A stretch of DNA of 26,819 nucleotides from a virus. The translations under genes and the position numbers were made by a program. Below, piece by piece: positions 5,572 to 26,819 of the stretch (position 1 is the stretch's first letter; each line of letters opens with the position of its first letter). The stretch is from positions 1 to 26,819 of IMG/VR virus record IMGVR_UViG_3300049215_000789. The stretch is one strand, 5' to 3'. The notes under the pieces were generated by a model. The model did not search any database. It was not told where the DNA came from and worked only from the letters and a program-made list of their open reading frames with translations.

Positions 5572-5602
5572 GCGTGAGAGCCGGGCTGTGCAGCCGCTAT
5601 TG

Positions 5603-6729: not shown

Positions 6730-6808
6730 ACACCCTAACGGCCTTCCGTAGCAACCAAAGCTCTGAAGGCTTCGCAGCCGAAATCTCCGCATAGGAAGGA
6801 GCCATCCC

Positions 6809-7204: not shown

Positions 7205-7401
7205 TCGAGCTGCACTGGACGCGCGAAGAGGTCCTCGACCAGGTCGATAGTCAGTTTCTCGAGGACCTTAATCGCGCCTGGGCGGACTATCCGCCGCTGC
7301 GCAAACTGGCCGCGGCCTATCTCGGCCACAAGCCGCCGGCGCGGCCGTCGAAGAACTATGCCGAGCTCTTGGCGATGTTTCCGGCCGGCAGCATCAGATG
7401 A
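7141..7401 (+). CDS. Tail assembly chaperone, T-like extension reached by -1 frameshift
   Basis: Reading frame -1 relative to the 6809 gene, overlapping its last 64 bases. From 7141 it encodes GNAGGERFDSFDWRALVADLVIELHWTREEVLDQV..., then a helical segment ending LRKLAAAYLGHKPPARPSKNYAELLAMFP, the usual pattern of the second tail-chaperone domain. No good independent start or ribosome site is visible near the beginning of the conserved part. The overlap contains GGGGGAAAT (7138-7146), a slippery run, so the larger product is probably a -1 frameshift fusion of about 197 residues (6809 to 7401). The coordinate 7141 marks the first shifted codon, not an initiation codon. Confidence 0.65.
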   Translation, partial: GNAGGERFDSFDWRALVADLVIELHWTREEVLDQVDSQFLEDLNRAWADYPPLRKLAAAYLGHKPPARPSKNYAELLAMFPAGSIR

Positions 7402-7425
7402 AATCGACAAAAGCGAGCGATCGCC

Positions 7426-8910: not shown

Positions 8911-8916
8911 CCGCCC

Positions 8917-10533: not shown

Positions 10534-10578
10534 GTGTAGCCACGACGACACCGGCACTCGCCTAGGGAACATCCGCCA

Positions 10579-11238: not shown

Positions 11239-11268
11239 ATTCAGCTTTTACTCGACATTGGCCGGCGC

Positions 11269-12324
11269 CTAAACGGCAGCCGCAGTCTTTCGCCTCGGTA
11301 TGAGGTCGTTCAATAATCGGCGCGCTGCTATGTCGAACTCGTGCGCAAAGTGCGCCGTGAAGATTGAGCAGGCGATGAAGGCGACACCCCAGGGCCATCG
11401 GGACGAGCCGGGATCAAGAAATCGCTGCGCCAGAAAAATCGCGGCGAAGAACAGCGGATAATGCACGGCGTATAGCGCATAGGAAATTGCCCCCAGCCAC
11501 CGGCAAGCCGCTGCTATCATCCCGCGCGGCTTACTTCGCGCGCCAAACCACACCACGAGCGGAAAGCCCGCCGCGACGGAAAGAAATATAAACGGCCTGC
11601 CGAAATGCTCCGGCGCCTTGACGGCAAGCATTGCGAGAAGAGCGGCTCCGATGACTATGGCCGGCATTTCAATAGGCGGCTTCGATCTGAGCCAGAGCGC
11701 ATAGACCAGAATTCCGGCGGGGAACGAGTACGCCACCCGGATCAACCCTTCCCAGAAGGTCGGCCAAACGTCGCCTCCGATCATCGGCCCGGAGAAAACC
11801 GTCCCGGCGAGCATGCCAACTCCTGCCAAACCCGTCGTGGCGAACAGCGCGGGAGTGCCAAGCCGCTTGCCAAAAATGCCGAGCCACAGGTTGGCGACGA
11901 GCTCGAAAAAGAGCGACCATGCCGGCGGATTGAGTGGATAAAGCGCAAGCGCAATCGGCGAGGGAATATAGAGGATTCCGCAGATCAGGTTGATTGCCAG
12001 CGGGCCAACGGCGCTCGTCCCATCGAGAAGAGAAATAACGCCGATCGGCAGCCAGATCACAAGGGCCAACAGGTAAAGCGGATAAAGCCGCTTCAGCCTG
12101 ATTATCATGAACTCCAGTGCAGAAAGTCCCGCTCGGAGCTTTTCGCCATAAGCGTGCGCGAGTACGAATCCGCTCAACGTGAAGAAGAAGTCGACGGCGA
12201 GATTCGCATTCGGCGGCATGCCCGGAAAAAAATATGTCGATGTATGGAGCGCAACGATGGTGATCGCCGCTATCCCGCGCATCCCGTCGAGGGTGACAAA
12301 CTCTCTGTCGCCAGTGCGGCTCAT
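11269..12324 (-). CDS. Acyltransferase family 3 membrane protein (OafA/OatA-like)
   Basis: 351 residues, multi-pass inner-membrane protein with about ten hydrophobic segments. Family signatures are LDGMRGIAAITIVALHTS at the N-terminus (His in the first membrane segment), NLAVDFFFTLSGFVLAHAYG, and RLKRLYPLYLLAL (the R..R..P motif). Members transfer acetyl or other acyl groups to O-antigen, exopolysaccharide or peptidoglycan on the outer side of the membrane. It is on the minus strand, convergent with the methyltransferase at 10579 and co-oriented with a second acyltransferase and a second methyltransferase. Phage-encoded members commonly change O-antigen to block superinfection. The ribosome site is weak. 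Substrate unknown. Confidence 0.83.
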   Translation of the reverse strand: MSRTGDREFVTLDGMRGIAAITIVALHTSTYFFPGMPPNANLAVDFFFTLSGFVLAHAYGEKLRAGLSALEFMIIRLKRLYPLYLLALVIWLPIGVISLLDGTSAVGPLAINLICGILYIPSPIALALYPLNPPAWSLFFELVANLWLGIFGKRLGTPALFATTGLAGVGMLAGTVFSGPMIGGDVWPTFWEGLIRVAYSFPAGILVYALWLRSKPPIEMPAIVIGAALLAMLAVKAPEHFGRPFIFLSVAAGFPLVVWFGARSKPRGMIAAACRWLGAISYALYAVHYPLFFAAIFLAQRFLDPGSSRWPWGVAFIACSIFTAHFAHEFDIAARRLLNDLIPRRKTAAAV

Positions 12325-12393
12325 GCAGGAGATTCTATAGCATAGATTAGCGGGTGACCGGGATGCTGGCGCGCGAATTGTGCCTCAACCGGC

Positions 12394-13398
12394 TTACTGC
12401 CCTTCCGATGTCGAAGTCGAGTGCCGAGGCATTGGACGATCCCGCGCGACCAGTATTTTACGGGATGCCGCCATGGCGGGTCGCTCTACCCAGCGGTGCA
12501 AGAGCGCCGCGACCGCGACAGAGGCCGCAAGCGCACAGGCCACCGCACAGGCCTCGTACAGTCCGCCATGACCGAATCGTTTTGCGAGGTCTATCACGCG
12601 ACCTCCGATCGGCACATGCACCAAGTATAGCGAATATGACAGGCCGCCAAACAGCAACGCCCACCGGCCGAAATCGACCGAACGTAAAAAATAAATCCCG
12701 CCGGCGCCGATTGTCACGGCTGTTCCTGTAGCAATTCCGCCGAAGATAAACACGGCGGCGAACGATAACAGCAGCCACGCTTTAGCGTGAATATCTTCGA
12801 CGATCACCGCGCGCATAAGCATGGCGCCCACCAAAAATTCCATGATCCGAACATCAACGGTCTTAAAGATGAGATACGCGATGGCGACGGTGCAAAGCGC
12901 AAGCGCGACCGTCGCGGCCACATTTCGCCGGATAAGGTAACCAAATGAAAGCCCGACGATGATGTAAAAGACAAATTCGTAGGCAAGCGACCAGTAGACC
13001 GGGCTAAGCCAACTGTAACCCGTCAAAGGTACCAAATAGAATAGATGCGATGCAATCTGTGGGGCCGAGTAATTCGGCGCCGCGCCAGCGAAGCCTGGCG
13101 CCATGCTGGATGCGTGCCACAGCACTACTATCAACGCGATGCTTACGAGATAAGGCGGCTCGAGTCGAACAAGACGGCGAAAAAGGAAGAAAGGGAAATC
13201 CCTAATTTCATATCCGGTTCCGTATAGCGATAGCGGAATGACGAATCCGGAAATCACGAAAAACACATCGACGCCGAGCCAGCCGTAGGCCCCGATCAAG
13301 CGGGCGCCGATTGAATTGAGCTGATCGCAGAAATGAAACAGGGCGACGCTTATGGACGCCAGCCCGCGCAATGCCTCGACGACGGAAATCCGTTTCAT
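12394..13398 (-). CDS. Acyltransferase family 3 membrane protein (second, distinct)
   Basis: 334 residues, multi-pass. Signatures: VVEALRGLASISVALFHF at the N-terminus, GWLGVDVFFVISGFVIPLSLYG, and RRLVRLEPPYLVSIALIV. The C-terminal region includes GGLSYSLYLVHVPIG and a last segment ending RWVERPAMAASRK. It belongs to the same superfamily as the protein at 11269-12324 but is clearly a different subfamily, so the pair is not a recent duplication. The 69-base gap to its neighbour and shared orientation suggest co-transcription. Likely an O-antigen or exopolysaccharide acyltransferase acting as lysogenic-conversion cargo; substrate unknown. Confidence 0.83.
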   Translation of the reverse strand: MKRISVVEALRGLASISVALFHFCDQLNSIGARLIGAYGWLGVDVFFVISGFVIPLSLYGTGYEIRDFPFFLFRRLVRLEPPYLVSIALIVVLWHASSMAPGFAGAAPNYSAPQIASHLFYLVPLTGYSWLSPVYWSLAYEFVFYIIVGLSFGYLIRRNVAATVALALCTVAIAYLIFKTVDVRIMEFLVGAMLMRAVIVEDIHAKAWLLLSFAAVFIFGGIATGTAVTIGAGGIYFLRSVDFGRWALLFGGLSYSLYLVHVPIGGRVIDLAKRFGHGGLYEACAVACALAASVAVAALLHRWVERPAMAASRKILVARDRPMPRHSTSTSEGQ

Positions 13399-13529
13399 TC
13401 AGCTTGATATTCTCGTTGTCCTGTCCGGTGTTGCAGGGCTCGCGCCATATCCGACGTCTTTTAGGGTCTCCCGGATGCGAACACCCACATCATCGCTTTG
13501 GGGCGCTGCGATTCCGTATATCGTCTACT

Positions 13530-14207
13530 TTACTCGGTCGCTTCGACGTAAAGGGATTCGACCTCCCGGACCGCACTGTCGATCAGCAAAGTGGGGTCGG
13601 CGCCGGTGCGGAATGACGCGCGGGTGATGTCCGAGAAGCCGCAGCGCAACAGCCGGGTGCGCAAAAGGCGGAAGTCGTACATGCAGCGGTGGCCTGCCGG
13701 GCTGTCGCGGGCGATGTAGAAAATGCCGTTGATGGACGTCATCGGCTCGATCGTAGAATCCTGCTGGTAAGGGAAGAGCTCGTTCGTCACGCCGCGCACG
13801 CGATCGACGTAACGCGTCAGCCACAGTTCGGCGTCGGGGACGACAAGGCGAATCCGCTTTCCGGGCGCCAGAACCCGGTGGCATTCGATAAGGAAGCGCT
13901 CCGCATCGCCGGGGTCGAGATGTTCGATGACATGCTCGCAAAAGATGCCGTCCAGCGAGTGTGACGCAAGCGGAATGCCGCGACGAATGTCCCAGCACAG
14001 GTCGATGCCCGGGCGCCATCCGAAGTCGAGATTGATGAAATTGGGATGCGTATTGGCGCCGCAGCCGACGTCGAGATAGCGCAAGTCGCGGAGGCGGCGG
14101 CTGCGAAGCTGGACACGCCGGTTCCTGATGCAGGCCGCGGCAAACCTTTGGACTGCCGCATAGGACCCGATCGGGCGGCCGATTTGGAGATTGCGGAGGC
14201 TTCCCAT
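13530..14207 (-). CDS. SAM-dependent methyltransferase (Methyltransf_11 type)
   Basis: 225 residues. After a basic N-terminus, motif I is YLDVGCGANTHPNFINLDFG (about 44-63), then DGIFCEHVIEHLDPGDAERFLIECHRVLAPGKRIRLVVPD (motifs IV-V, about 86-125). The CGAN.HP.FINLD and EHVIEHL pattern is frequent among methyltransferases encoded in polysaccharide biosynthesis clusters. It is on the minus strand, upstream of the two acyltransferases in the same direction, and divergent from the DUF2163 tail gene. A role in glycan methylation is inferred from context. It reads as the first gene of a three-gene minus-strand cargo unit. Confidence 0.75.
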   Translation of the reverse strand: MGSLRNLQIGRPIGSYAAVQRFAAACIRNRRVQLRSRRLRDLRYLDVGCGANTHPNFINLDFGWRPGIDLCWDIRRGIPLASHSLDGIFCEHVIEHLDPGDAERFLIECHRVLAPGKRIRLVVPDAELWLTRYVDRVRGVTNELFPYQQDSTIEPMTSINGIFYIARDSPAGHRCMYDFRLLRTRLLRCGFSDITRASFRTGADPTLLIDSAVREVESLYVEATE

Positions 14208-14306
14208 TGCAGGCGCAGTTTAGCGACTAAGCCCGCGGCGGCAACCGCAGGGATTTGTGCGTCCCCATGAATTGCGGCGAGAGAGCGCCGCCGACAGAGC
14301 CGGTCC

Positions 14307-15182
14307 ATGAAATCCGCCCCCGCCAGCCTCATAAACTTCCTGAATCAGGTCATCGGCTACAATGACGGCCAGCTGGTGTTTGCCGAGGCGTTCAGCTTTA
14401 CGCTGCGGAACGGCACGGTGCTGGCTTACACCAATTCGGAGATCAGTTTCGTCTATGACGGCGTCACTTATCTGGGCAACAATGTCCTGATCGACGGGCT
14501 GAAATACAAGGCCTCGATCGGGCTCGAGGTCGACAAGCAGCAGATCAGCATCGCGGCGCGCCCCGACCAGACCATCGCGGCGAATGCGCCGTTTCTGCAA
14601 GCGCTGCGCGACGGCGGTTTCGACGGCTGCGAAGTCGCGCGCAGCCGGGTGTTCTGGTCGGACGTGATCGGCGGCACGCTCATTGGCGGCGTGATCCTGT
14701 TCAAGGGCCGGCTCGGCGCCATCGACGAGATCGGCCGCGTCGGTGCCAAGCTTACGGTCAATTCCGATCTGGTGCTGCTCGACATCGACATGCCGCGCAA
14801 CGTCTATCAGCCGACCTGCCTGCACACGCTCTACGATGCCGGCTGCACGCTTTCGAAGGCAGCGTTCTCGGCCGGCGGGACGGTCGGCGCCGGCTCGACC
14901 GCGTCTCTTGTCAATTGGTCCGGCGCGAGCTTGAGCTATCAGCAGGGCACCATCACGTTCACATCCGGCGTCAACTCCGGCGTCACCGGCACCATCGGCT
15001 CGGCGGTGGCGGGCGTTTCGCTTTCGCTGATCTATCCGCTGCAGAGCCCGCCGAGCACGGGGGATGCCTTCACGGTGGCGTTCGGCTGCGATCACACGCC
15101 GGCGACCTGCAAGGCCAGGTTCAACAATCTGACGAATTTTCGCGGCTTTCCCTATGTGCCGCCGCCGCAGATGGCGGTTTGA
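14307..15182 (+). CDS. DUF2163 tail protein (GTA gp13-like / phage BR0599 family)
   Basis: 291 residues. The N-terminal half (LINFLNQVIGYNDGQLVFAEAFSFTLRNGTVLAYTN, then VTYLGNNVLIDGLKYKASIGLEVDKQQISI) is DUF2163. The C-terminal portion with repeated Cys (YQPTCLHTLYDAGCTLSK; FGCDHTPATCKARFNNLTNFRGFPYVPPPQMAV) is the conserved BR0599 domain. In gene transfer agents the homologue is a baseplate hub component and follows the DUF2460 gene immediately. Here the two are separated by 3.8 kb of cargo, yet the frame is intact and complete. No strong ribosome site is visible before ATG 14307. The next gene is the NlpC/P60 peptidase, as in GTA and related siphophages. Confidence 0.85.
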   Translation: MKSAPASLINFLNQVIGYNDGQLVFAEAFSFTLRNGTVLAYTNSEISFVYDGVTYLGNNVLIDGLKYKASIGLEVDKQQISIAARPDQTIAANAPFLQALRDGGFDGCEVARSRVFWSDVIGGTLIGGVILFKGRLGAIDEIGRVGAKLTVNSDLVLLDIDMPRNVYQPTCLHTLYDAGCTLSKAAFSAGGTVGAGSTASLVNWSGASLSYQQGTITFTSGVNSGVTGTIGSAVAGVSLSLIYPLQSPPSTGDAFTVAFGCDHTPATCKARFNNLTNFRGFPYVPPPQMAV

Positions 15183-15186
15183 ATTC

Positions 15187-15269
15187 CGTCATTGCGAGCA
15201 GAGCGAAGCAATCCAGGCCGTTTGCTCGGCGCGGATAGTCTGGATTGCGTCGCTCCGCTCGCAATGACG
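15187..15269. repeat. Palindromic REP-like repeat of the GTCATTGCGAG type
   Basis: Two 30-base arms, 15187-15216 and 15240-15269, are inverted copies with two mismatches and a 23-base loop; each starts or ends with CGTCATTGCGAGC and GCAATCCAG. This dispersed palindrome is familiar from Bradyrhizobium/Rhodopseudomonas-type genomes. It is inserted between the DUF2163 and NlpC/P60 genes, just upstream of the latter's start, where it would form a strong hairpin in the tail mRNA. Confidence 0.8.
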
Positions 15270-15284
15270 CGACAGGCAGCCGAC

Positions 15285-15743
15285 ATGACAATGACCGAAG
15301 CCGAACAGCGCGCCGCGGTGGTCGCCGAGGCGCGCAGCTGGATTGGCACGCCCTATCATCATTGCGCGGCGATCAAAGGCGTCGGCGCCGATTGCGGCAT
15401 GATGATCATCGCGGTGTTCCGCGCCGCCGGCCTCATCGCCGATTTCGATCCGCGGCCTTATTCGCCGGACTGGCATCTGCATCACGACGAGGAACGCTAT
15501 CTCGACGTCGTTCTGCGGCACGCCCGCGAAGTCGACGCGCCGCGGCCGGGCGACCTCATGGTGTTTCGCTGGGGCCGCAGCTACGCGCATGGCGGCATCG
15601 TCACCGGTCTCGATCCGCTCGCCATCGTGCACGCCTATTTTCCGGCGCGCGGGGTCTTCGAGGATGAAGTGGCGCGCGACGCCAACCTGTCCGAGCCGCG
15701 GCGCGCGCCGCGGTTTTTCAGCCATTGGAAGGCATCTTCCTGA
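15285..15743 (+). CDS. NlpC/P60 family tail peptidase (GTA gp14-like)
   Basis: 152 residues. Cys-His peptidase of the NlpC/P60 fold: catalytic Cys37 in GVGADCGMM, His102 in YAHGGIVT, and His116 in IVHAYFP as a probable third residue. Typical start is TEAEQRAAVVAEARSWIGTPYHHCAAIKG. Such proteins sit at the tail tip and cut peptidoglycan cross-links during genome entry. I place the start at ATG 15285 because the longer version from 15192 translates the REP-like repeat. There is no strong ribosome site, perhaps because the repeat displaced it. The stop overlaps the next ATG by one base (TGATG). Confidence 0.85.
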   Translation: MTMTEAEQRAAVVAEARSWIGTPYHHCAAIKGVGADCGMMIIAVFRAAGLIADFDPRPYSPDWHLHHDEERYLDVVLRHAREVDAPRPGDLMVFRWGRSYAHGGIVTGLDPLAIVHAYFPARGVFEDEVARDANLSEPRRAPRFFSHWKASS

Positions 15744-15841
15744 TGACCGACTGCAAACTCATCGGCGCCATCATCGGCATGATGTGGTGGCTGTTCACCG
15801 GCGGGCCGCGCCGGCGCCCTAACGCGAGGCCGAAGAAATGA
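15743..15841 (+). CDS. 32-residue membrane microprotein between NlpC/P60 and tail-tip genes
   Basis: Short frame MTDCKLIGAIIGMMWWLFTGG followed by RRRPNARPKK. Its start overlaps the NlpC/P60 stop by one base, and its stop overlaps the next ATG as ATGA, which is the pattern of translational coupling. It has one hydrophobic segment with a strongly basic tail, so it is probably a single-span membrane peptide. No known family recognised. Support comes from the tight overlaps and the hydrophobic/basic layout; it may alternatively be just a coupling leader. Confidence 0.5.
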   Translation: MTDCKLIGAIIGMMWWLFTGGPRRRPNARPKK

Positions 15842-18222
15842 GCGGCGTCCGCAATTTCTTCGGCGGCGGCGGCTCGCATCCGGCCGTGGCGCCGGATTAC
15901 ACCGGCCTGCAGATCCAGACCGCCGTCAACGCGCTGCCGATCGCGATCGTGTGGGGTGAATCAAAGCTCGCGCCGAACCTGATCTGGTACGACAATTTCA
16001 GCGCCGTCGCGCAAACCTCCGGCTCCGGCGGCAAGGGCGGCGGCTCCGGCGGCGGCAATGTCACCGGCTACAGCTACTTCGCCGATATCATCATGGCGCT
16101 GTGCGAAGGGCCAATTATCGGCATCAATCAGGTGTGGCGCGGCCAGTCCGATTATACGCTGGCCCAGCTCGGCCTCGGGTTGTTTCTCGGCACCACGCCG
16201 CAGACCGATTGGAACTATCTCACCACCGCTTATCCGGCGCAGGCGCTCGCCTATCAGGGCACCGCCTATCTGGCGGCATCGAGCTACAGCCTCGGCTCGA
16301 GCGCGATTTTGGACAACCACAATTTCGAGGTCCAGAGCCTTTTTTTCGGCAGCGGCACCAACGGCATCGACGCCGATCCGGCGCAAGTGGTCAACGATTT
16401 TCTTACCAATGCGCAATACGGCATCGGTTTTCCGTCGGCCTCCATCAACAGCGCGACGCTGTTCGGATCGAGCGGCGATGCGTCGTTTCAGACCTATTGC
16501 GCGGCGATCGGGCTGTCGATCTCGCCGGCCTTGACCAATCAGGAAACCGCCTCGTCGATCCTCGACCGCTGGCTGAGAATCTGCAACACCGCCGCCGTCT
16601 GGTCGGGCGGCGAACTCAAATTTTTGCCCTATGGCGACACCGCGACCACCGCGGGCGCGGTCGAGAGCGCCACGCAGCAGCGGCAGATCCCGCCGGCCGG
16701 CGAGACCAATACCACCTACCCGACCGTCGTTGTCAGCGCGGCGGCGCGCTTTGTCGCCGATGGCGGCGTGACCTATGCGCTTTCCGGCGTTGCGCTGACC
16801 AATACCGGCTCGGCGCCGACGGTCGCCGGCACTTACGGCATTTCGCCCGCCGGCAGCTATCTGTTCTCCACTGCCGACGGCGGCAATCTGGTCAAGATCA
16901 CTTACCAATATTCGGTTGCGGCAAGCTTCGTGCCGAATGTCACGCCGGTCTACGATCTCGACGACGACGATTTCGTGCATGAGGCGAATGCCGACCCGGT
17001 CCAGGTGTCGCGTTCCGATCCCTACGAAGCCTACAATGTCTGGCGCATGGAGGTGGCCGACCGCGACAACGCCTATAACGTCACCACCGTCGAATCGCGC
17101 GATCAGAATGCGATCGAGCTCTACGGCATGCGCATCGCGCCCACCTTCACGGCGCACGAAGTGTGCGACCCGGACGTAGCGCTGCTGTCGGGCCAGCTGA
17201 TGCTGCAGCGCTCGGTCTATATCCGCAACACCTACAAGTTCCGGCTGTCCTGGGAATATTGCCTGCTCGATCCGATGGATCTGGTGACGCTGACCGACGC
17301 CAATCTGGGGCTGAACAAGACCGCCGTCCGCATCACCGATATCGAGGAAGACGACCAAGGACTGCTCGACATCACGGCCGAGGAATTTCCGCTCGGCCAT
17401 GCCACGGCGACGCTCTATGCGACGCAGCAGGTCAACAATTCGCCGATCAATCGCAATTACGCGCCAAATCCGGTCAATACGCCGATCATCTTCGAGCCGC
17501 CGTCCGCGCTCGCGAGCTCGCAGGTGTGGATCGCCGCATCGGGAGGTTTTGGCGGGGCTGCCGATCCGCTGTGGGGCGGTTGCTTTGTCTGGGTGTCGCT
17601 CGACCAGACGACGTATCTGAACGTCGGTAAGATCACGGCGCCGGCGCGCCAAGGCACGCTCACCGCGTCGCTTGCAGCCTTCAGCGGCACCAATCCCGAC
17701 ACATCCGATACGCTTTCCGTCAATCTCGGCGAAAGCGCAGGCACCCTCGCGACGGTATCCGATATCGCGGCGAGCCTCGGACAATCGCTGTGCATCGTCG
17801 ACAGTGAGGTATTGTCCTTCAGCGTTGCGACGCTCGCGTCACCGAACCATTACAGCCTGACCGGGCTCTATCGCGGCTTGTACGGCACGGCGGCGGTGTC
17901 GCATACCGCGGGCGCGCCGTTTGCGCGACTCGACACCGCGATTTTCGAATACGATCTGCCGGCTCAATTCGTCAATCAGACGCTTTACATCAAGCTGCAG
18001 AGCTTCAATGCCTTCGGCTCGGGCGTTCAGGATATTTCGACCTGCGCCGTCTACACGGTGTTGCCGGTGGGCGTGATCGAGCATCCGATCGCCGCCGCCG
18101 AGAACACCGGCACGGCGCAGGATTTCAAATCACTGACGCTCGCGGTCGGCACCAAAGACGATTTCGGCGGGACGCTCGGGTTATCGGTTTCCATCAGCGT
18201 CGATCTCGGCGCCTGCCACTGA
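15838..18222 (+). CDS. Tail-tip / host-specificity protein (Phage-tail_3, GTA gp15-like)
   Basis: 794 residues, the central tail-tip protein equivalent to lambda J in position. The N-terminus (MSGVRNFFGGGGSHPAVAPDYTGLQIQTAVNALPIAIVWGESKLAPNLIW), a Gly/Ser spacer (about 62-75) and SYFADIIMALCEGPIIGINQVW are characteristic. Residues about 185-270 (FLTNAQYGIGFP, FQTYCAAIGLSISPAL, ILDRWLRICNTAAVWSGGELKFLPYGD) match the Phage-tail_3 domain. A small beta-rich insertion lies near 300-365, and the C-terminal third is beta-rich with YSLTGLYRGLYGTAAVSH. It starts in a 4-base overlap with the microprotein gene. A 607-residue open frame on the other strand is a shadow. Confidence 0.87.
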   Translation: MSGVRNFFGGGGSHPAVAPDYTGLQIQTAVNALPIAIVWGESKLAPNLIWYDNFSAVAQTSGSGGKGGGSGGGNVTGYSYFADIIMALCEGPIIGINQVWRGQSDYTLAQLGLGLFLGTTPQTDWNYLTTAYPAQALAYQGTAYLAASSYSLGSSAILDNHNFEVQSLFFGSGTNGIDADPAQVVNDFLTNAQYGIGFPSASINSATLFGSSGDASFQTYCAAIGLSISPALTNQETASSILDRWLRICNTAAVWSGGELKFLPYGDTATTAGAVESATQQRQIPPAGETNTTYPTVVVSAAARFVADGGVTYALSGVALTNTGSAPTVAGTYGISPAGSYLFSTADGGNLVKITYQYSVAASFVPNVTPVYDLDDDDFVHEANADPVQVSRSDPYEAYNVWRMEVADRDNAYNVTTVESRDQNAIELYGMRIAPTFTAHEVCDPDVALLSGQLMLQRSVYIRNTYKFRLSWEYCLLDPMDLVTLTDANLGLNKTAVRITDIEEDDQGLLDITAEEFPLGHATATLYATQQVNNSPINRNYAPNPVNTPIIFEPPSALASSQVWIAASGGFGGAADPLWGGCFVWVSLDQTTYLNVGKITAPARQGTLTASLAAFSGTNPDTSDTLSVNLGESAGTLATVSDIAASLGQSLCIVDSEVLSFSVATLASPNHYSLTGLYRGLYGTAAVSHTAGAPFARLDTAIFEYDLPAQFVNQTLYIKLQSFNAFGSGVQDISTCAVYTVLPVGVIEHPIAAAENTGTAQDFKSLTLAVGTKDDFGGTLGLSVSISVDLGACH

Positions 18223-18321
18223 TTTTCAGCCGCGACACCATTTGCCGGCGATAGCGCGCTCACGCGCGTCAAACGCAATGCCTGCAACCCACATTGGGCG
18301 CGGCTTTATGGGGAGTGACGC

Positions 18322-19344
18322 ATGGTTACTGCCGTTCAAGTGCAATATCGGCGCGATACTGCCGCCAATGTCGCCGGTTTTACCGGCGCCGCCGGTGAGA
18401 TCGTCGTCGACACCACGCGCAATCGCGCCGTCGTCCAGGACGGCGCCACCGCGGGCGGCTTTGCTCTCGCCAAGATCGCCGACGCCCAGGGCTATGGCTT
18501 CGTCGCCAATTACGGGCTCGCGGCCTCGGTCGCGGCCAACAATCTCACGGTCGCGCTGGTCAATGCCGCGGGCAACAATCCCTCGGCCGCCAACTCCGTG
18601 TTCGTGCCGTTTCGCAACGTGACGCTCGGCACCGGGACGCCGGCCTTTGTCGAGATTACATCGGCGCTGTCGATTCAGATCGCGTCCGGCGACACCCTCG
18701 GCACCGCCAACACCGTGCCGTTCCGGTTCTGGATCGTCATTTTCAATTCCGGCGGCACGCCCGTTCTGGGTGCGATCAATTGCACCGTGGGGGCGGGGAC
18801 CGCGGCATTGTCGCCGACCGCGATCGCTCCGCTCGACGAAACGGCGCTGCAATCGCCGACATCGACGATCGGCAACACGGCCGGCGTGCTCTATGCCGGC
18901 GCCAGCGTCAGCGCCAATTCGCCGATGCGGGTTCTCGGCTATGTCGAATATGGCGGCGGCCTCGGCACGGCGGGAACCTACAACGCCGCGCCATCGAAAG
19001 TGCAATTGTGCGGGCCGTTCGTGCCGCGTCCCGGCCAGACCGTGCAGTCGAAATTCACCACGACCGCGAGCGTAAGCATTGCGCCGACGAGCGCCGTCAA
19101 TCTGGTGAGGGCCGTTTGCTACGCCTCGCTGACCGGCGCCAACAACTCCGCATCGATCGCTCTGAAACGCGGGTCGACCAGTCTCGCCAGTGCGGCAATT
19201 ATCGGCGCGACGATGAACGATTGGGCGGGCGCCTTATGCGTGATGGACAATCCGCAGACGACTTCGTCGACCACTTATTCGCTGTCGAACACGGGCCTGG
19301 GATTTTCAACGGAATTCATCATCCTCGACGAGATCATGGGCTGA
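18322..19344 (+). CDS. Tail fibre / appendage protein
   Basis: 340 residues. The N-terminal 48 residues (VQVQYRRDTAANVAGFTGAAGEIVVDTTRNRAVVQDGATAGG) are the short attachment module found at the start of many phage tail fibres, with the pattern RR.T......GE..VDT....V..DG.T. The rest is Ala/Ser/Thr/Gly-rich, beta-structured and low in charge, fitting a trimeric receptor-binding fibre; the C-terminus (STTYSLSNTGLGFSTEFIILDEIMG) is compact. It follows the tail-tip gene by 99 bases. It is the second candidate receptor-binding protein besides the glycine-rich fusion at 8917. A tandem repeat starts at its stop codon. Confidence 0.75.
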   Translation: MVTAVQVQYRRDTAANVAGFTGAAGEIVVDTTRNRAVVQDGATAGGFALAKIADAQGYGFVANYGLAASVAANNLTVALVNAAGNNPSAANSVFVPFRNVTLGTGTPAFVEITSALSIQIASGDTLGTANTVPFRFWIVIFNSGGTPVLGAINCTVGAGTAALSPTAIAPLDETALQSPTSTIGNTAGVLYAGASVSANSPMRVLGYVEYGGGLGTAGTYNAAPSKVQLCGPFVPRPGQTVQSKFTTTASVSIAPTSAVNLVRAVCYASLTGANNSASIALKRGSTSLASAAIIGATMNDWAGALCVMDNPQTTSSTTYSLSNTGLGFSTEFIILDEIMG

Positions 19345-19392
19345 TCTGCGGGCTGATCTCTGAGCTGACTTCGGGCTGAACCCGGGCTGGTC
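19338..19392 (+). repeat. Degenerate tandem repeat GGGCTGAyC, five copies
   Basis: Copies of 11-12 bases starting at 19338, 19350, 19362, 19373 and 19384, each based on GGGCTGA. The first overlaps the fibre stop codon. Each unit carries an in- or out-of-frame TGA, so extension of the fibre frame is blocked. Downstream to 19534 there are two small hairpins (GCAGCG/CGCTGC at 19397-19414; CGGCGTG/CACGCCG at 19472-19491) and no gene. Confidence 0.6.
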
Positions 19393-19534
19393 TTTTGCAG
19401 CGGTGCTTCGCTGCTCCCGCTCAAATTCGATCAGACAATCAAAGGGGTGATCGGGCGTCATCGCTTTCGCACGGCGTGTTTCGGCACGCCGCGACGGCCT
19501 TCCTCATCCGGCAATCAAATCTGGGAGAATTGGA

Positions 19535-20053
19535 ATGACCTCAACTGGCATGGCTTCAATGTCAGGGCCGAATATTTGGCCGTTGCAAAGGGACTGTCTC
19601 GCCTTCTACGGCGATCCGCGGCAGGCGGGCTGGCTGCACGCCAATACGGTCGATGTGCCGTGTCCGTGGCCGCTCCACGTCGGCAATGTCGCGGTGAAGA
19701 ATATCCTCATCCACAAGAAGTGCGCCGAAAGCCTCGTCCGGGTGCTCGGCGCCATCTGGGACGCGGTCGGGCGCGATGCCGGCAAGATCAGGCAATTGCG
19801 CTACGACGTCTATGACGGCAGCTATAATCTGCGGCTCATCCGCGGCAGTGCGTCCGCGATGTCGATGCACGCCTTCGCGGCGGCGATCGATTGGGACGCC
19901 GCCGACAATGCCCAGCACGATCGCAGGCATCTGTTCCAGGACGACAGCCTCCTGGTCGCGAAATTTCGCGAGGAGAATTGGGTCTGGGGCGGCGATTGGG
20001 CCGCGGGCTCGGTCGACGCCATGCATGTCCAGGCGGCGCGGGTCCACCCATGA
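19535..20053 (+). CDS. M15-family D-Ala-D-Ala carboxypeptidase-like endolysin
   Basis: 172 residues. Zinc peptidase of the M15 (VanY/Ply500-like) group: His112 and Asp119 in SMHAFAAAIDWD, and His164 in DAMHVQ are the metal ligands; a Glu at 146/147 just before NWVWGGDW is the likely catalytic base. It cleaves peptide cross-links in peptidoglycan for host lysis. No signal peptide is visible, so it probably depends on a holin. Start ATG 19535 has GGGAG 8 bases upstream; Met6 and Met9 are less likely. Its stop overlaps the next ATG as ATGA. First gene of the lysis cassette. Confidence 0.85.
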   Translation: MTSTGMASMSGPNIWPLQRDCLAFYGDPRQAGWLHANTVDVPCPWPLHVGNVAVKNILIHKKCAESLVRVLGAIWDAVGRDAGKIRQLRYDVYDGSYNLRLIRGSASAMSMHAFAAAIDWDAADNAQHDRRHLFQDDSLLVAKFREENWVWGGDWAAGSVDAMHVQAARVHP

Positions 20054-20589
20054 GCAAGACATTCTGTCTCGTCGACCTCTACGGGCTGGGCGGGCTTGCG
20101 ACCTCGCCCGGCATGCTGACGCTCGCCGGAAAGATCAAAAAGCTCGGCACCGGCTTTGTCGTGCTCGGGCCTTACGATCAATCACAGTGGCAAGAGGCGG
20201 CCGGCGATCTTGCAAACCGTCCGGCGGCCGATCTGATCGGCGCCGTAGGTTACAGCCTGGGCGCCAATAACGTTGTCCAGATCGCCGGCATGCTCGGCCG
20301 CAAGATCGATTATGTCGCCGGCATCCAGCCGTCGTTTTGGGGGCTCGGGGTCGACTGGTCGGCGGCCATCGCGTTGCCGCCAAGAGTCGGCGCGGCGCGC
20401 TGCATCTACAATCCGAATTTTCTCGCCACCGGCGGCCTCGGTTACGCGCGTTACGCCGCGCCGGAAGCTTTTGCCGGTCGACTTCGTCTCACCACCACAA
20501 ACGATCTGCATCCCGACGTCGATGCCGATACCGGCGTGCACGGACTGATCCTGAGCGACCTGCGCAATCTCATGCCGAGGGAGAACTGA
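20050..20589 (+). CDS. GxSxG alpha/beta-hydrolase-like protein in lysis cassette
   Basis: 179 residues, beginning in a 4-base overlap with the endolysin, so translation is coupled. It starts with a beta strand and Gly loop (CLVDLYGLGG) and has a nucleophile elbow GAVGYSLGANNVVQIAG (Ser69 in GYSLG), followed by DYVAGIQPSFWG. A likely catalytic His is in NDLHPD (His154), or possibly VHGLI (His164); the Asp is not certain. The size is small for this fold but the order of elements is right. An esterase acting on an envelope lipid or ester during lysis, comparable in logic to mycobacteriophage LysB, is an inference from position. I know no characterised close family. Confidence 0.6.
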   Translation: MSKTFCLVDLYGLGGLATSPGMLTLAGKIKKLGTGFVVLGPYDQSQWQEAAGDLANRPAADLIGAVGYSLGANNVVQIAGMLGRKIDYVAGIQPSFWGLGVDWSAAIALPPRVGAARCIYNPNFLATGGLGYARYAAPEAFAGRLRLTTTNDLHPDVDADTGVHGLILSDLRNLMPREN

Positions 20590-20591
20590 AA

Positions 20592-20771
20592 ATGGGAACC
20601 GATCAATTCACCGGAATTCTGCGCGCCGTGATCCCGGCCGGCGTCGCCTATGTGGCGGGCAAAGGCTGGCTGCCGGCCGACACGGCAAGCGACATCGGCG
20701 CCGGCATCGTCACCATCCTCGCCGCGATCTGGTCGTGGAAGACCAATACGCCCGGCAAGACCGTCAAATGA
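20592..20771 (+). CDS. Putative small holin (Pam3 gp28-like)
   Basis: 59 residues: TDQFTGILRAVIPAGVAYVAGKGWLPADTASDIGAGIVTILAAIWSWKTNTPGK. Two short hydrophobic stretches (about 8-23 and 33-48) flank a GKGW...D turn, and the short tail is basic. The pattern DQ..GILRAV...G..Y..GKG.......A...GA.VT...A.WSW matches small phage membrane proteins annotated as putative holins. It starts 3 bases after the hydrolase gene. Such a protein would permeabilise the inner membrane and release the endolysin. Its size fits; no functional data. Confidence 0.68.
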   Translation: MGTDQFTGILRAVIPAGVAYVAGKGWLPADTASDIGAGIVTILAAIWSWKTNTPGKTVK

Positions 20772-20782
20772 GGAGCAACACC

Positions 20783-21148
20783 ATGCGACACGCTCTCCTG
20801 CCGGTCATTGCGGCGCTTGCGCTTGCCGGCTGTACGGCGACCCAGCAGGCGCAATTCCAATCTGGCGTCGCCGCTTTCAACAACGACGTGGCGCTGATCG
20901 ATTCCTCGATCGCCACGGTGTCGTCGGCGCTCGCCAATAATTGCACGCAACTGGCAGCGACCGGGCAGGCGCTCGCCACGCTGATCGGCACCAGCACGGC
21001 CGCCGGCGCCGGCCTGACCGGCGTCGATGCGGCGATCGTCAGCTACTGCCAGGCGCATCCGACCAATATCACGACCGCCGTCAGCGCGACGGCGGCGGCG
21101 ATTTCAGCCGGCAAGGCCGCGCAATCGGCAGCCAAAGCGGGGAACTGA
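20783..21148 (+). CDS. Small lipoprotein, possible spanin-like component
   Basis: 121 residues. Type II signal peptide with lipobox: MRHALLPVIAALALAGC, lipidated Cys17. The mature part is Ala/Thr/Ser-rich with two further Cys residues (NNCTQL, SYCQAH), and the C-terminus is helical (AISAGKAAQSAAKAGN). Start at ATG 20783 is favoured by AGGAG 7 bases upstream; an ATG at 20768 overlapping the holin stop would put six residues ahead of the signal peptide. Lying between holin and coiled-coil membrane protein, it may serve as the outer-membrane spanin partner, but it is longer than typical Rz1, so this is tentative. Confidence 0.65.
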   Translation: MRHALLPVIAALALAGCTATQQAQFQSGVAAFNNDVALIDSSIATVSSALANNCTQLAATGQALATLIGTSTAAGAGLTGVDAAIVSYCQAHPTNITTAVSATAAAISAGKAAQSAAKAGN

Positions 21149-21149
21149 C

Positions 21150-21422
21150 ATGGAAGCGCTCCTGCCAGTTCTTGCGGCGATTTTTCCGTCCGTCGAATTC
21201 GAGGGATTGAGCATCGCCGAGTGGGAGGAAATCGTCGCCGCCTTGGCGGCCGCGAAGCCCGAGATCGAAGCGATGGCTGAGAAGCTCAAGCCGGTCGTCG
21301 CCAAATTCGTCGGCCGGCTGAAGCTCAAGGACAGCGGAACGCCGCTCATCAACTCCGTTCCGGGTTACGCCGCCGACGGCAGCGTCACGCCGATCCCAAG
21401 TGCGATGAGCGGCGTTCGGTGA
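21150..21422 (+). CDS. Small hypothetical protein in lysis cassette
   Basis: 90 residues starting 1 base after the lipoprotein stop. The first ~60 residues are helical and amphipathic (LPVLAAIFPSVEFEGLSIAEWEEIVAALAAAKPEIEAMAEKLKPVVAKFVGRLKLK); the tail is Pro/Gly/Ser-rich (PLINSVPGYAADGSVTPIPS). There is no clear membrane segment and no family that I recognise. Its stop (TGA 21420-21422) is within a few bases of the next gene's ribosome site, so the cassette is translated as a tight unit. Confidence 0.6.
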   Translation: MEALLPVLAAIFPSVEFEGLSIAEWEEIVAALAAAKPEIEAMAEKLKPVVAKFVGRLKLKDSGTPLINSVPGYAADGSVTPIPSAMSGVR

Positions 21423-21430
21423 GGACCAAG

Positions 21431-21760
21431 ATGCCGGGAAAACTTGACGAGATCAGCCGCGCCATCGGATCGCTGGAAACGAGTGTGCGAGAGCTCAAGC
21501 GCCGGATGGACGAGAACCGCACGCTGCAGGCGCGGCGTCACGCCGACAGTTCGGCGACCTTGCGGGAATTGTCCGACAAGCTCGACCAGCACGCCGCCGC
21601 GGTTGCGACCATCCAGCCGACCGTGGCGGCGTTGGAATTGTCACGTTCGAAGCTGGCAACGTGGGCGTCTATCGGGCTTGGGGCCGTCGCGCTGCTGGGC
21701 TGGGTCGTCGAAGCCGGAATCAAATGGGCCTTGAGTGTCGTGCTCTCGCATTTTCAGTGA
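21431..21760 (+). CDS. Coiled-coil, single-TM phage protein (DUF1515-like)
   Basis: 109 residues. Residues 1-~72 form a charged coiled coil (LDEISRAIGSLETSVRELKRRMDENRTL... LRELSDKLDQHAAAVATIQPTVAALELS). A C-terminal membrane segment (ATWASIGLGAVALLGWVVEAGIKWALSVVL) follows. The layout resembles DUF1515-type proteins in rhizobial prophages and some inner-membrane spanin or holin-accessory proteins, though topology (TM at the C-terminus) differs from a classical i-spanin. ATG 21431 has GAGG about 6 bases upstream; a GTG at 21419 overlapping the previous stop is an alternative. It is the last prophage gene, followed by a strong terminator. Confidence 0.68.
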   Translation: MPGKLDEISRAIGSLETSVRELKRRMDENRTLQARRHADSSATLRELSDKLDQHAAAVATIQPTVAALELSRSKLATWASIGLGAVALLGWVVEAGIKWALSVVLSHFQ

Positions 21761-21937: not shown

Positions 21938-22975
21938 TTAGGCCGCGGCGCTGACGCTGCCGCTTGTCGGCACGGAGGCGATCGTCTTCAGAACCTGCGA
22001 AGTGATCTGGTACGGGTCGCCTTGGGAGTTCGGCCGGCGGTCTTCCAGATACCCCTTGTAGCCGTTATTGACGAAGCTGTGCGGCACGCGGATCGAAGCG
22101 CCGCGGTCGGCAATCCCATAGCTGAACTCGGTGATCGCCGCGGTCTCGTGCTTGCCGGTCAACCGCATATGGTTGTCCGGGCCGTAGACCGCGATGTGAT
22201 CGGCGCGAGCTCCCTCGAAGGCCTTCATCAGCGCTTCGAAATACTCCTTGCCGCCGACTTCGCGCATATAGGCGGTCGAGAAGTTGCAGTGCATGCCGGA
22301 GCCGTTCCAGTCGGTGTCGCCGAGCGGCTTGCAGTGGAACTCGATGTCGACGCCGTATTTTTCGGTGAGCCGCAGCATCAGATAGCGGGCCATCCACATC
22401 TGGTCGGCCGCAGTCCTCGAGCCCTTGCCGAATATCTGGAATTCCCACTGGCCCTTCGCCACCTCGGCGTTGATGCCTTCGTGGTTGATGCCGGCCGCAA
22501 GGCAGAGATCGAGATGCTCCTCGACCATCTTGCGGGCGATGTCGCCGACATATTTGTAGCCGACTCCGGTGTAGTAGGGGCCTTGCGGCGCCGGATAACC
22601 GCTCGCCGGGAAGCCGAGCGGGCGGCCGTCTTTGTAGAAGAAGTATTCCTGCTCGAAGCCGAACCAGGCGCCGGGGTCGTCCAGAATGGTGGCCCGCTTG
22701 TTCGACTCGTGCGGCTGGCCGTTGGGCAGCATCACTTCGCACATCACCAGCACGCCATTGATGCGCGCGGCGTCGGGATAGACGGCGACCGGTTTGAGAA
22801 CGCAATCCGAATTCGAACCGGTGGCTTGATTGGTCGAGGAGCCGTCGAAGCCCCATAGCGGAAGCTGTTCGAGCGTCGGAAACGCGTCGAAATCTTTCAG
22901 CTGCGTCTTGCCGCGCAAGTTCGGCACTGGCGTGTAACCGTCCAGCCAGACGTATTCGAGTTTATATTTTGTCAT
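21938..22975 (-). CDS. glnII: Glutamine synthetase type II (GSII)
   Basis: 345 residues, eukaryotic-type GSII that makes glutamine from glutamate, ammonia and ATP in the cytoplasm. Signatures: WGFDGSST (41-48), the ATP-binding stretch around GINHEGINAEVAKGQWEFQ (162-180), NGSGMHCNFS (224-233) and DRGASIRVP (290-298). Length is typical. Rhizobia and some actinobacteria carry it in addition to GSI. It has GGGAG 5 bases before ATG 22975, a sigma-54 promoter at 23070-23085, and a palindromic leader. Nitrogen control through NtrC is established for rhizobial glnII; I see no clean NtrC dyad here. It is divergent from a gstI-like gene. Unlike GSI it lacks the adenylylation loop. Confidence 0.96.
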   Translation of the reverse strand: MTKYKLEYVWLDGYTPVPNLRGKTQLKDFDAFPTLEQLPLWGFDGSSTNQATGSNSDCVLKPVAVYPDAARINGVLVMCEVMLPNGQPHESNKRATILDDPGAWFGFEQEYFFYKDGRPLGFPASGYPAPQGPYYTGVGYKYVGDIARKMVEEHLDLCLAAGINHEGINAEVAKGQWEFQIFGKGSRTAADQMWMARYLMLRLTEKYGVDIEFHCKPLGDTDWNGSGMHCNFSTAYMREVGGKEYFEALMKAFEGARADHIAVYGPDNHMRLTGKHETAAITEFSYGIADRGASIRVPHSFVNNGYKGYLEDRRPNSQGDPYQITSQVLKTIASVPTSGSVSAAA

Positions 22976-24737: not shown

Positions 24738-24750
24738 GTCTTGGCCCGGG
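24701..24750 (+). repeat. 25-base tandem duplication, two copies
   Basis: 24701-24725 and 24726-24750 are identical except for C/T at the 13th base; each begins AGTCAAATTTGAG and ends GGCCCGGG. It duplicates the end of the toxin remnant just ahead of the immunity gene start. Confidence 0.9.
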
Positions 24751-24758
24751 AGAAAGGA

Positions 24759-25487
24759 TTGAACGCATTAGCCTTCAATTATTCGATTCGTTTGCCACTT
24801 GCGGATCGCCCCGCGGGCTCCGATTGGCTGGGCGCAAAATTTCTAGCAACGCTCGACGCGCTAACTGAACTCGATGCGAATATCTTTCCTGATTGGGAGG
24901 TCGGCGATCTACCCGCCATGAAGGGGTATCCGCTGGCCGTTGCCCGGTCGCGCATTGCCGAGATCATCGGCCATAACGTCCAACGTGATGAATACGGTCT
25001 CCCGCAGCCCAAGGACGGCTATATTGCCGCAGCCCATACGACGTTCGCCGCGAGATCGCGCCGGATGAGATTGTGGATTGGAATGGGAGATAACACTTTG
25101 TGGCTGAAGACGGGCGATTGGAAAGTGTTTCCCGATCCGGTGATTGTGACGTTTCCGCTGTTCAAGGCTGCTCTCCTTTTGATCCACTCGATATGGCCCT
25201 CGCCCTGGGCGTGCGCGCAGGCATTTCGATCCAATACGGTGGAGATACCCAGCCCAACAGGTAGAGGTTACAGCCTGGAAAGCGGCCCGATGATTCCGGC
25301 CGATCCCACCTTTCCGCGATCCATCTTTCACATCCCCTGGATCACCTATCTTTCAGCGTCGCTTGCCTCCGGTATCGAACCGCCGCCGGAAATCCAGACT
25401 GAGCGTACATCTGACGGTGGGCTTCTGATGATCGCGACCGAGGAACGGCTCGATCCCGATCTCCCGGAACACGCGCGGCGGCGATGA
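24759..25487 (+). CDS. Imm52-type immunity protein, copy 1
   Basis: 242 residues from TTG 24759. The pattern (DWLGAKFLATLDALTELDANIFPDW, SRIAEIIGHNV, VTFPLFKAALLLIHSIWPSPWACAQAF, DPTFPRSIFHIPWITYLS, TSDGGLLMIATEERLDPDLPEHARRR) resembles immunity 52 family proteins, which neutralise Tox-REase-5 toxins. It is a clear paralogue of the gene at 26025, and ends about 16 residues earlier. I choose TTG 24759 because it aligns with the paralogue's start and because the ancestral toxin stop would overlap it as TTGA; TTG 24741 lies inside the tandem repeat. Its stop overlaps an ATG (25484) that opens a frame of only five codons. Confidence 0.72.
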   Translation: MNALAFNYSIRLPLADRPAGSDWLGAKFLATLDALTELDANIFPDWEVGDLPAMKGYPLAVARSRIAEIIGHNVQRDEYGLPQPKDGYIAAAHTTFAARSRRMRLWIGMGDNTLWLKTGDWKVFPDPVIVTFPLFKAALLLIHSIWPSPWACAQAFRSNTVEIPSPTGRGYSLESGPMIPADPTFPRSIFHIPWITYLSASLASGIEPPPEIQTERTSDGGLLMIATEERLDPDLPEHARRR

Positions 25488-25500: not shown

Positions 25501-26028
25501 GTGGGACATGTCATTGGCGGAAATCGGGTCGCTATTGATACTCTTGCCGTGTTGCCCGATTTGGTGAAAACGAACGGGCCGAGGCTCTGTCCCGCCTCAG
25601 CGCCGGATGTGGCTGGCAGTGACCAAGGCAAGCCGTACGAGGAAAACAGGTCCCGACAGTACGAAGATTTCGTCAAGCTGCTGATCAATCCTCCCCCCGC
25701 TGGACCGACGCCAACCGGTTTTGTCTATTACATGCCGAACCCTCGGGGCGGCGAGCCGGTCAGCTACGACGATTGCAAGTGGACGAATGGCATATTGTTT
25801 GAAATCAAAGGCGAGGGTCTTGCGAAGCTTACAAATGACCTTCCCGATATTATGGTGTCGAAATTCGTCCGCCAAGCTACTCGGCAATTGGCGGCAAGCG
25901 CAGGACAGCCGGTGATTTGGATTTTCGCCGAAGAGGAAGCTGCGCTATTTGCTCGCGATCATTTTGACAAGAACGGGCTCAAGCAGATTACAGTCGCATA
26001 TGTTCCCTGGATCAGGAGCGGACGATGA
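25501..26028 (+). CDS. Tox-REase-5-type nuclease toxin domain, without trafficking domain
   Basis: 175 residues from GTG 25501, the first start in an open frame. The domain from about residue 28 (PRLCPASAPD, RQYEDFVKLLINPPPAGPTPTGFVYYMPNP, VSYDDCKWTNGILFEIKGEG, RQATRQLAASAGQPVIWIFAEEEAALFARDHF, ITVAYVPW) follows the restriction-endonuclease-fold toxin 5 pattern. Acidic Asp90/91 and Glu101-Ile-Lys103 supply the PD-(D/E)xK-like site. Full-length toxins of this type are C-terminal tips of larger T6SS, Rhs or other polymorphic proteins; no such N-terminus is present. It is either an orphan tip awaiting recombination or a small stand-alone effector. Its stop overlaps the next gene start as ATGA. 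Confidence 0.75.
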   Translation: MGHVIGGNRVAIDTLAVLPDLVKTNGPRLCPASAPDVAGSDQGKPYEENRSRQYEDFVKLLINPPPAGPTPTGFVYYMPNPRGGEPVSYDDCKWTNGILFEIKGEGLAKLTNDLPDIMVSKFVRQATRQLAASAGQPVIWIFAEEEAALFARDHFDKNGLKQITVAYVPWIRSGR

Positions 26029-26819
26029 CGACGTCGATAAACTATCAATATTCCGTGCGGGGCAGTTGGCTCGGGCCGGCAGATGAAAAACCTGCCGTCA
26101 TCGGGGCGAAGTTTTTGCAGACGCTCGACGCACTGAGCGGCATCGATCCGCTGTTTACCGGCTGGCAATTTACCGGAACTTGGCAGATCCCCGAAGAGCA
26201 CAGATCCGAATTTGTGCCGCTCACGGCCGGGCGTGAACGCATCGTGGAAATTGTTGAAAGCGGCGTCTACATTGACGACTTCAACGAGCCCTGTCCGGAA
26301 TATGGGCATAACGTATTCGCTGTGGCCGGGGCGAGAGGTTCTCGTCATGTGTCGTTTGTAGCATCGACCCGCGATCAGCGCTTTAAGCTTTCGTTTGGCG
26401 AAGACGACACCGATTTGTCGATTGTGATCTACCCGCTGTTCAAGGCCGCGCTGCTGGCGATCAATGCAGTGTGGCATGCGCAGTGGACATGCGCGCAGGC
26501 ATTCAGGACTGACTACGTTTCGGTTCCAATGGATTTTGGCTCTGGCGTTCCTGCGTTCAGAATAGACAGCCTTCCTAAAGTTCCGCTTGATCCGACATTT
26601 CCAGAATCGATCTTTCACGTTCCTTGGATTGTCTACCTTTCGGAGGAACTCGCCGCGGGCATCACGCTCGCACGCGATATCCTGACCGAGCGCGCGCCCG
26701 ACGGCGGCCTTCTGATGAGTGCCACGACGGAGCGGCTCGATCCCACAAATCCCGAGCACGTGCGTCGCGCCCGCATCTTGGCGGAGACGATGATCGCCTG
26801 CACCGGCGGTTCATCGTGA
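26025..26819 (+). CDS. Imm52-type immunity protein, copy 2
   Basis: 264 residues, complete and ending at the last base of the window. It shares with copy 1 GAKFLQTLDALSGIDPLFTGW, IYPLFKAALLAINAVWHAQWTCAQAF, DPTFPESIFHVPWIVYLSEELAAGI and ERAPDGGLLMSATTERLDP. It is coupled to the toxin by an ATGA overlap, the usual arrangement for a cognate toxin-immunity pair, so this copy is the likeliest partner of the intact toxin. The C-terminus extends about 16 residues beyond copy 1. It should act in the cytoplasm of the producing cell. More immunity or toxin cassettes may follow beyond the window. Confidence 0.76.
   Translation: MTTSINYQYSVRGSWLGPADEKPAVIGAKFLQTLDALSGIDPLFTGWQFTGTWQIPEEHRSEFVPLTAGRERIVEIVESGVYIDDFNEPCPEYGHNVFAVAGARGSRHVSFVASTRDQRFKLSFGEDDTDLSIVIYPLFKAALLAINAVWHAQWTCAQAFRTDYVSVPMDFGSGVPAFRIDSLPKVPLDPTFPESIFHVPWIVYLSEELAAGITLARDILTERAPDGGLLMSATTERLDPTNPEHVRRARILAETMIACTGGSS

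Follow-up and report, generated by a model that had tools for sequence, protein, structure and literature searches.

Lysis of Gram-negative hosts by bacteriophages is classically attributed to three components: a holin, an endolysin and a spanin. A role for an esterase encoded within the lysis cassette is known mainly from viruses of mycobacteria. In phage Ms6, the mycolyl-arabinogalactan esterase LysB is a serine hydrolase encoded beside the endolysin and proposed to free the outer membrane. According to the accessible part of PMC5707550, loss of LysB lowers the Ms6 burst from ~147 to 53 and leaves more phages in the pellet. A phage of the Gram-negative host Pseudomonas syringae carries a lipase-like gene beside those for its holin and endolysin (PMC12173070, accessible part), so the concept extends beyond mycobacteria.

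Among the matches listed in our literature search, no alpha/beta hydrolase was described in an alphaproteobacterial or gene transfer agent (GTA) lysis cassette. The accessible main text of PMC11409702, which deals with RcGTA-like prophages, contains neither "hydrolase" nor "esterase", and the accessible part of PMC8601537 names no esterase or lipase, the "hydrolase" mentioned there being a cell-wall peptidase.

Here we describe a predicted alpha/beta serine hydrolase encoded in the lysis cassette of a virus record of 26,819 bases (the window, i.e. the whole stretch of DNA that was analysed). A hydrolase recurring in such cassettes of alphaproteobacterial phages and GTAs would add an enzymatic outer-membrane route to the lysis pathway, or a helper cutting peptidoglycan. 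It would also provide a handle on how such GTAs are released, and its family would represent unnamed enzymes with an altered active site. A lysis-cassette esterase is a known kind of protein, while the family, the host group, the link to GTAs and the altered acid position appear to be new within the searches made.

Organization of the element

The window begins with an aspartyl-tRNA synthetase-like gene and holds a prophage remnant extending to a glutamine synthetase-like gene (Table 1). Genes were called with a codon-usage script, and start positions may be off. The recognised tail genes encode a tape measure protein, a DUF2460 protein, a hub protein, an NlpC/P60 protein (match just under the cut-off), a tail tip protein and an Mtd_N fibre protein. 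The lysis cassette comprises, in this order, genes for the endolysin, the hydrolase, the holin, a lipoprotein-like protein and two further small products. Searches with small window ORFs yielded no recognisable spanin (nearest match phrog_739, E 0.43); the lipoprotein-like ORF is possibly an unrecognised outer spanin.

Table 1. Features of the window and of the related contigs.
Feature	Contig	Position	Strand	Remarks
Aspartyl-tRNA synthetase-like gene	window	window start		by eye, from translation
CI-like repressor	window	2615-3358		
Tail tip protein (gp15/J-like)	window	15838..18222	+	anchor for finding related loci
Tail fibre-like protein, Mtd_N domain	window	18322..19344	+	upstream of lysis cassette
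M15-type endolysin	window	19535..20053	+	Peptidase_M15_4, Pfam E 1.5e-8, above cut-off
Predicted alpha/beta serine hydrolase, 179 aa	window	20050..20589	+	ATG start; Ser69 (GYSLG), His154 (LHPD), Gln93, Asn121
Holin, Phage_holin_10 (Pam3 gp28 family), 59 aa	window	20592..20771	+	PF23987 E 7.1e-11, above cut-off; no PHROG
Small lipoprotein-like ORF	window	20768..21148	+	LAGC lipobox by eye; relatives in L017, L055, L115
90-aa cassette ORF	window	21150..21422	+	no family
Coiled-coil ORF	window	21431..21760	+	C-terminal hydrophobic stretch (by eye); relatives in several related cassettes
Glutamine synthetase-like gene	window	21938-22975		by eye, from translation
M15 beside hydrolase	window, L017, L031, L055			window by Pfam; L017 and L031 by BLAST or PHROG; L055 by eye
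M15 near hydrolase	L128			Pfam; two small ORFs away from hydrolase
GH108 beside hydrolase	L123, L131, L132, L136, L137			by Pfam
GH108 beside hydrolase	L118, L124, L125, L126, L129			by family search
GH108-type beside hydrolase	L133, L135, L134			L133, L135 by sub-cut-off muramidase match; L134 by eye
Muramidase beside hydrolase	L138			PF11860
Unnamed 194-aa protein	L025	13449-14030		
Unnamed 194-aa protein	L001	4423-5007		
Unnamed 194-aa protein	L019	8231-8818		
Unnamed 194-aa protein	L115	3206-3790		

The element is a decayed prophage. No family match to a terminase, portal, capsid or integrase was obtained among the window ORFs searched (2008-21760), and the ORF at 5161-5571 corresponds only to positions 151-254 of phrog_8234, a family present at full length in contigs L017 and L055. 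Both features would suit a hydrolase gene that is now inert in the window's host, a possibility that we consider appreciable but still somewhat unlikely. Against it, the frames of the hydrolase, endolysin and gp15 genes are intact and dN/dS is low in pairs of family members, although this ratio reflects selection across the whole lineage.

Head-tail connector genes are present in L055. The same glutamine synthetase flank as in the window is found in L017 and L055 (in the latter via the overlapping L003). The label "tail tube" for ORF 5161-5571 was discarded: it stemmed from position only, and phrog_8234 carries no assigned function. Stretches matching this family also lie inside the tail tip protein (residues 263-361) and a head-tail adaptor (L055:189-1025), as might result from the copying of a small domain between structural genes.

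The stretch 10579-14207, flanked by the genes for DUF2460 and the hub protein, contains two Acyl_transf_3 and two methyltransferase genes, possibly involved in surface modification. A nucleotidyltransferase gene (NTP_transf_8, E 8.4e-58) occupies 5603-6622 on the minus strand, and a similar-looking ORF occurs at L055:4767-5789. Past the glutamine synthetase-like gene lie two similar-looking ORFs (24741-25487 and 26025-26819), the first of which has no Pfam family; ORFs resembling this pair are found at L025:18049 and L115:7954.

Coupling of the hydrolase and endolysin genes

The preliminary description reported a hydrolase ORF, a GYSLG motif and an ATGA overlap with the M15 endolysin gene, and all three were confirmed from the sequence. 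The overlap is formed by the ATG of the hydrolase gene and the TGA of the endolysin gene. The coupling is also recurrent in relatives, the ATGA junction being shared by five contigs (the window, L017, L055, L027 and L025); in L031 and L115 the corresponding junction consists of a 3-base and a 76-base gap, respectively.

GYSLG spans residues 67-71 of the window hydrolase, with Ser69 as the candidate nucleophile. By itself the motif carries little weight, since shuffling this protein 20,000 times produced a GxSxG pattern in 2,292 cases. Conservation in other contigs (34-85% identity), purifying selection and the predicted fold place it beyond chance. The identity to the window hydrolase amounts to 85% in L017, 74% in L055 (same contig as L003), 68% in L031, 75% over 126 residues in L027 (same contig as L001) and 34% in L025. 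The dN/dS values of six hydrolase family pairs (NG86) ranged from 0.15 to 0.29, which indicates purifying selection, and those for the window hydrolase and its L017 relative from 0.11 to 0.15.

Predicted fold and active site

AlphaFold2 modelling of the window hydrolase (14 alignment rows) gave a confident alpha/beta-hydrolase (pLDDT 86.5, pTM 0.86), and the L131 hydrolase, belonging to the other clade, was modelled with a pLDDT of 90.3. The serine hydrolase assignment made earlier from the sequence thus has the alpha/beta core that it called for. Aligned with VIA-align, 934 of 1000 chains reached Z >= 8 against the window model. The matches included Est30 (1tqh; Z 15.7, 157 aligned, rmsd 3.0), XCC1541 (Z 15.2) and the minimal lipase LipA of Bacillus subtilis (1i6w; Z 14.4, 154 aligned, rmsd 3.0). 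Est30 and LipA have the fold in common with the window hydrolase over most of the chain, but share 13-15% identity and no phage link with it. LipA has a canonical acid in its active site.

In the model, strand 62-68 leads into Ser69 and helix 70-81, forming a nucleophile elbow. A lack of conservation of Ser69 would have counted against the preliminary description; its position is invariant in 32 of 32 family rows, the window included. As for the catalytic His anticipated there, two candidates are present, and the conserved one is His154 (LHPD), placed after the last strand (144-149) and invariant in all 31 rows covering that site. The acid of the expected triad was not found at its usual places, where Gln93 follows strand 6 (86-92) and Asn121 follows strand 7 (113-120); His154 may be stabilised by either residue or by an acid near residues 156-158. 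The window hydrolase therefore departs from the canonical Ser-His-Asp/Glu arrangement, in which an acid directly follows strand 6 or 7, and its activity is not assured.

At the position of Gln93, Asp is found in 22 of the 32 rows and Gln in the other 10, i.e. in the window, L017, L055, L031, L027, L025, L115 and the chromosomal relatives L116, L117 and L120. L025 is the sole Gln row with an acid at either place (Asp after strand 7). The Gln rows thus retain the nucleophile and the base, and the acid is absent at both places except in L025.

The replacement of Asp by Gln in these 10 rows could signify a loss of catalysis, the protein serving as an endolysin chaperone or regulator. The close coupling to the endolysin gene would suit such a partner, and Gp1 of phage Ms6 offers a precedent (PMC5707550, accessible part). 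We regard this explanation as quite improbable, since Ser and His are invariant in the Gln rows, the endolysin partners are mutually unrelated, and the chromosomal Gln-type genes of L116, L117 and L120 have no adjoining endolysin gene in the stretches read (by eye; L116 ends soon after the gene).

Relationship to known families

The window hydrolase matched 0 Pfam families at E <= 10 and no NCBIfam family, and its only PHROGs match at E <= 1 was the unnamed phrog_25432 (E 0.25). The hydrolases of the window, L123, L138 and L025 gave no tblastn match in 50,697 phage records at the limits used. Membership in the cutinases or PETases was rejected, the matches being weak or due to the common fold. 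Judged by sequence, the family is unnamed and distinct from LysB.

The comparison with LysB made in the preliminary description stood as regards the place in the cassette beside the endolysin, but not as regards sequence, there being no match to a LysB profile in PHROGs or Pfam. Some likeness of fold was detected with Lysin B of Gordonia phage GMA6 (BFVD, E 8e-4, TM 0.40); the window hydrolase differs from LysB in having Gln at the acid place. Solved LysB structures did not figure among the VIA-align matches listed, which has no bearing either way. Unlike the hosts of LysB phages, the window's host is not known to have mycolates.

The best viral fold match was A0A6J5MSD8, a 166-aa alpha/beta hydrolase of an uncultured Caudovirales phage (E 4.6e-7, TM 0.59/0.63), which shares only 12% identity with the window hydrolase. 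The P. syringae phage enzyme, as given in the accessible part of PMC12173070, is a GDSL lipolytic protein with a carbohydrate-binding domain, whereas the window protein has an alpha/beta-hydrolase fold and GYSLG in place of the GDSL nucleophile motif of GDSL/SGNH phage lipases.

Relatives and their linkage to lysis genes

Searches of 397 and 296 genomes yielded distant full-length relatives, from which 16 stretches were taken. Eight have phage or GTA surroundings (L115, L118, L123, L124, L125, L126, L128 and L129) and seven have other surroundings (L116, L117, L120, L121, L122, L127 and L130); L119, a full-length match whose stretch was not resolved by gene calling, was left out. Scanning viral sequences with the GTA-type clade added L131-L138 as members (L139 and L140, a shorter match, were excluded). 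When genomes were scanned with the two-row alignment A1, 40 pattern matches and zero relatives were obtained. The hydrolase of L019 is only remotely related to the other members (29% identity to that of L129, E 2e-6). In a tree of 31 members the window-clade phage members cluster at 71/60 only, the bootstrap not being settled.

Linkage was assessed in two ways. The first test was anchored on the tail tip protein instead of the hydrolase and comprised 60 loci, of which 49 were examined (11 partial, end-cut or weak matches were left out). Seven loci had an endolysin recognised as M15 or GH108; the hydrolase gene was present in three of these (L017, L031 and L055) and absent from four (L005, L016, L029 and L040). 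Four further loci (L019, L022, L025 and L027) have an unnamed 194-aa protein at the endolysin position, and a hydrolase family member is found in the cassettes of L019, L025 and L027, while L022 stops inside the 194-aa protein.

In the second test, matches of the GTA-type hydrolase alignment in 296 genomes from the family of G507 were compared with GH108 positions (the first 102 hydrolase rows and 150 GH108 places, among the matches listed). Seven of the nine hydrolase matches of at least 150 bits, among those listed, had a GH108 gene no more than 3 kb away; the other two were in L128, where two small ORFs separate the hydrolase from an M15 gene, and in the remnant L145. Only 2 of 93 weaker rows were near GH108 (the second part of a gene with a broken frame in G439, and L125), and a hydrolase accompanied 8 of the 150 GH108 places among the matches listed. 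Strong members are thus linked to lysis genes, yet the cassette often lacks them. The hydrolase is a facultative component with a patchy presence in comparable cassettes, and some relatives are ordinary chromosomal genes.

Of 23 rows assigned to a phage or GTA context, 18 have a recognised kind of endolysin encoded by the adjacent gene (M15 in 4, GH108-type in 13, some by eye, and Muramidase in 1) and three have the 194-aa protein there, a count that is partly circular because context was used to define the set.

The 194-aa protein adjoins the hydrolase in L025, L027 and L115 and is one gene away in L019. It gave nothing beyond noise in Pfam, PHROGs, NCBIfam and PDB sequences, so that its reading as an endolysin rests on position; the label "lysozyme-like" in these four contigs found no support in any library searched and was dropped. 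A HERE motif is invariant in this protein.

In L136 a PG_binding_1 domain (E 2.2e-11) precedes the hydrolase within one protein. This fusion, together with the pairing of most GTA-clade members with glycan-cutting GH108 enzymes, would fit an esterase directed at peptidoglycan, for instance one removing O-acetyl groups and thereby enabling the endolysin, and not at an outer-membrane lipid. We consider this rather unlikely: the window and its nearest relatives are paired with M15 peptidases, which would be less hindered by O-acetylation.

Gene transfer agent clusters

Several relatives are located in GTA clusters, comparable to the RcGTA-type clusters whose particles are released by holin and endolysin. 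L125 encodes a GTA megatron (gp15; NF048004, 1214.7 bits against a cut-off of 800) and L118 a C-terminal piece of one (E 3.2e-84). GTA_TIM was found in L123, L129, L131 and L133; in L131 the gp15 with a GTA TIM barrel (PF13547, E 6.3e-138) is adjacent to gp14 (TIGR02219, E 1.1e-66). L124, L126, L132, L134 and L135 were identified as GTAs by eye. The window element itself does not form a complete RcGTA-type head-tail cluster; tail and lysis genes were recognised in it, and none of its searched ORFs proved to be a head gene.

The GTA of R. capsulatus differs in that its endolysin and holin genes (rcc00555/556) are located elsewhere (PMC8601537, accessible part), and C. crescentus differs in employing LypABC, as described in the accessible part of PMC13236601.

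L145:4129-7155 is a GTA remnant with terminase and portal-like pieces; directly after them come two small ORFs, which look holin-like by eye but match no family, and an intact hydrolase gene.

Proposed role in lysis

We propose, with confidence about evenly balanced, that the hydrolase assists lysis as an accessory enzyme that attacks the envelope, LysB-like in its working but belonging to a separate, unnamed family. The protein would be soluble and produced within the lysis operon through translational coupling to the endolysin. The holin would pass both proteins into the periplasm, where the endolysin would cut peptidoglycan and the hydrolase an ester (or thioester or amide) of the envelope; the outer membrane might then detach, permitting a fuller release of particles. 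The likely users would be alphaproteobacterial siphophages and GTA clusters. Action in the periplasm is suggested by the peptidoglycan-binding fusion, by the position in the cassette and by signal-like N-termini, seen by eye in the L137 and L138 hydrolases. As to the substrate, most weight is given to some envelope ester.

The same slot can be filled differently. In L040, whose M15 endolysin is 75% identical to that of the window, a PNP_UDP_1 phosphorylase-like gene (L040:15168-15896) takes the place of the hydrolase gene and overlaps the endolysin gene. Its product scored 115.6 bits with PRK07077 (cut-off 215) and 102 bits with HpnG, a phosphorylase associated with hopanoids (cut-off 187), and far lower, 29.8 bits, with methylthioadenosine nucleosidase. 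Another HpnG-like phosphorylase gene follows a holin-like ORF in L029 (L029:16207-16917). The notion that such cassette genes are widespread was abandoned, as two contigs only were found; with both scoring below the cut-offs, they provide a circumstantial lead only toward the target.

This exchange in L040, the patchy presence of the hydrolase and the acyltransferase and methyltransferase genes of the same prophage would all agree with an accessory enzyme (a "moron") occupying a permissive slot of the late operon. Such an enzyme might alter a small molecule or the surface lipid of the lysogen or hinder other phages, and would adjoin the endolysin only because late genes terminate there. We consider this unlikely, because the adjacency recurs with M15, GH108 and Muramidase endolysins, GTA clusters included, and because the ATGA junction across five contigs, the peptidoglycan-binding fusion and the signal-like N-termini speak against it.

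A more specific version of the proposed lysis role would make the hydrolase a Gram-negative counterpart of LysB, i.e. a third, outer-membrane lysis enzyme of alphaproteobacterial phages and GTAs. With a non-canonical Ser-His-Gln (or Ser-His-Asn) site in the window clade it would cleave the ester anchoring hopanoid-bearing lipid A or another lipid, and the HpnG-like phosphorylase sharing its slot would weaken the same layer in another way. Lipid A of Bradyrhizobium does carry a hopanoid in ester linkage (PMC5613085, accessible part). This version, which takes up a target suggested in the preliminary description, seems to us highly doubtful.

Paired chromosomal relatives

Two chromosomal stretches, L117:3898-6615 and L120:4017-6662, each carry two relatives, a Gln-type and an Asp-type protein, separated by one small ORF. 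Most of these paired proteins have signal-like N-termini (by eye).
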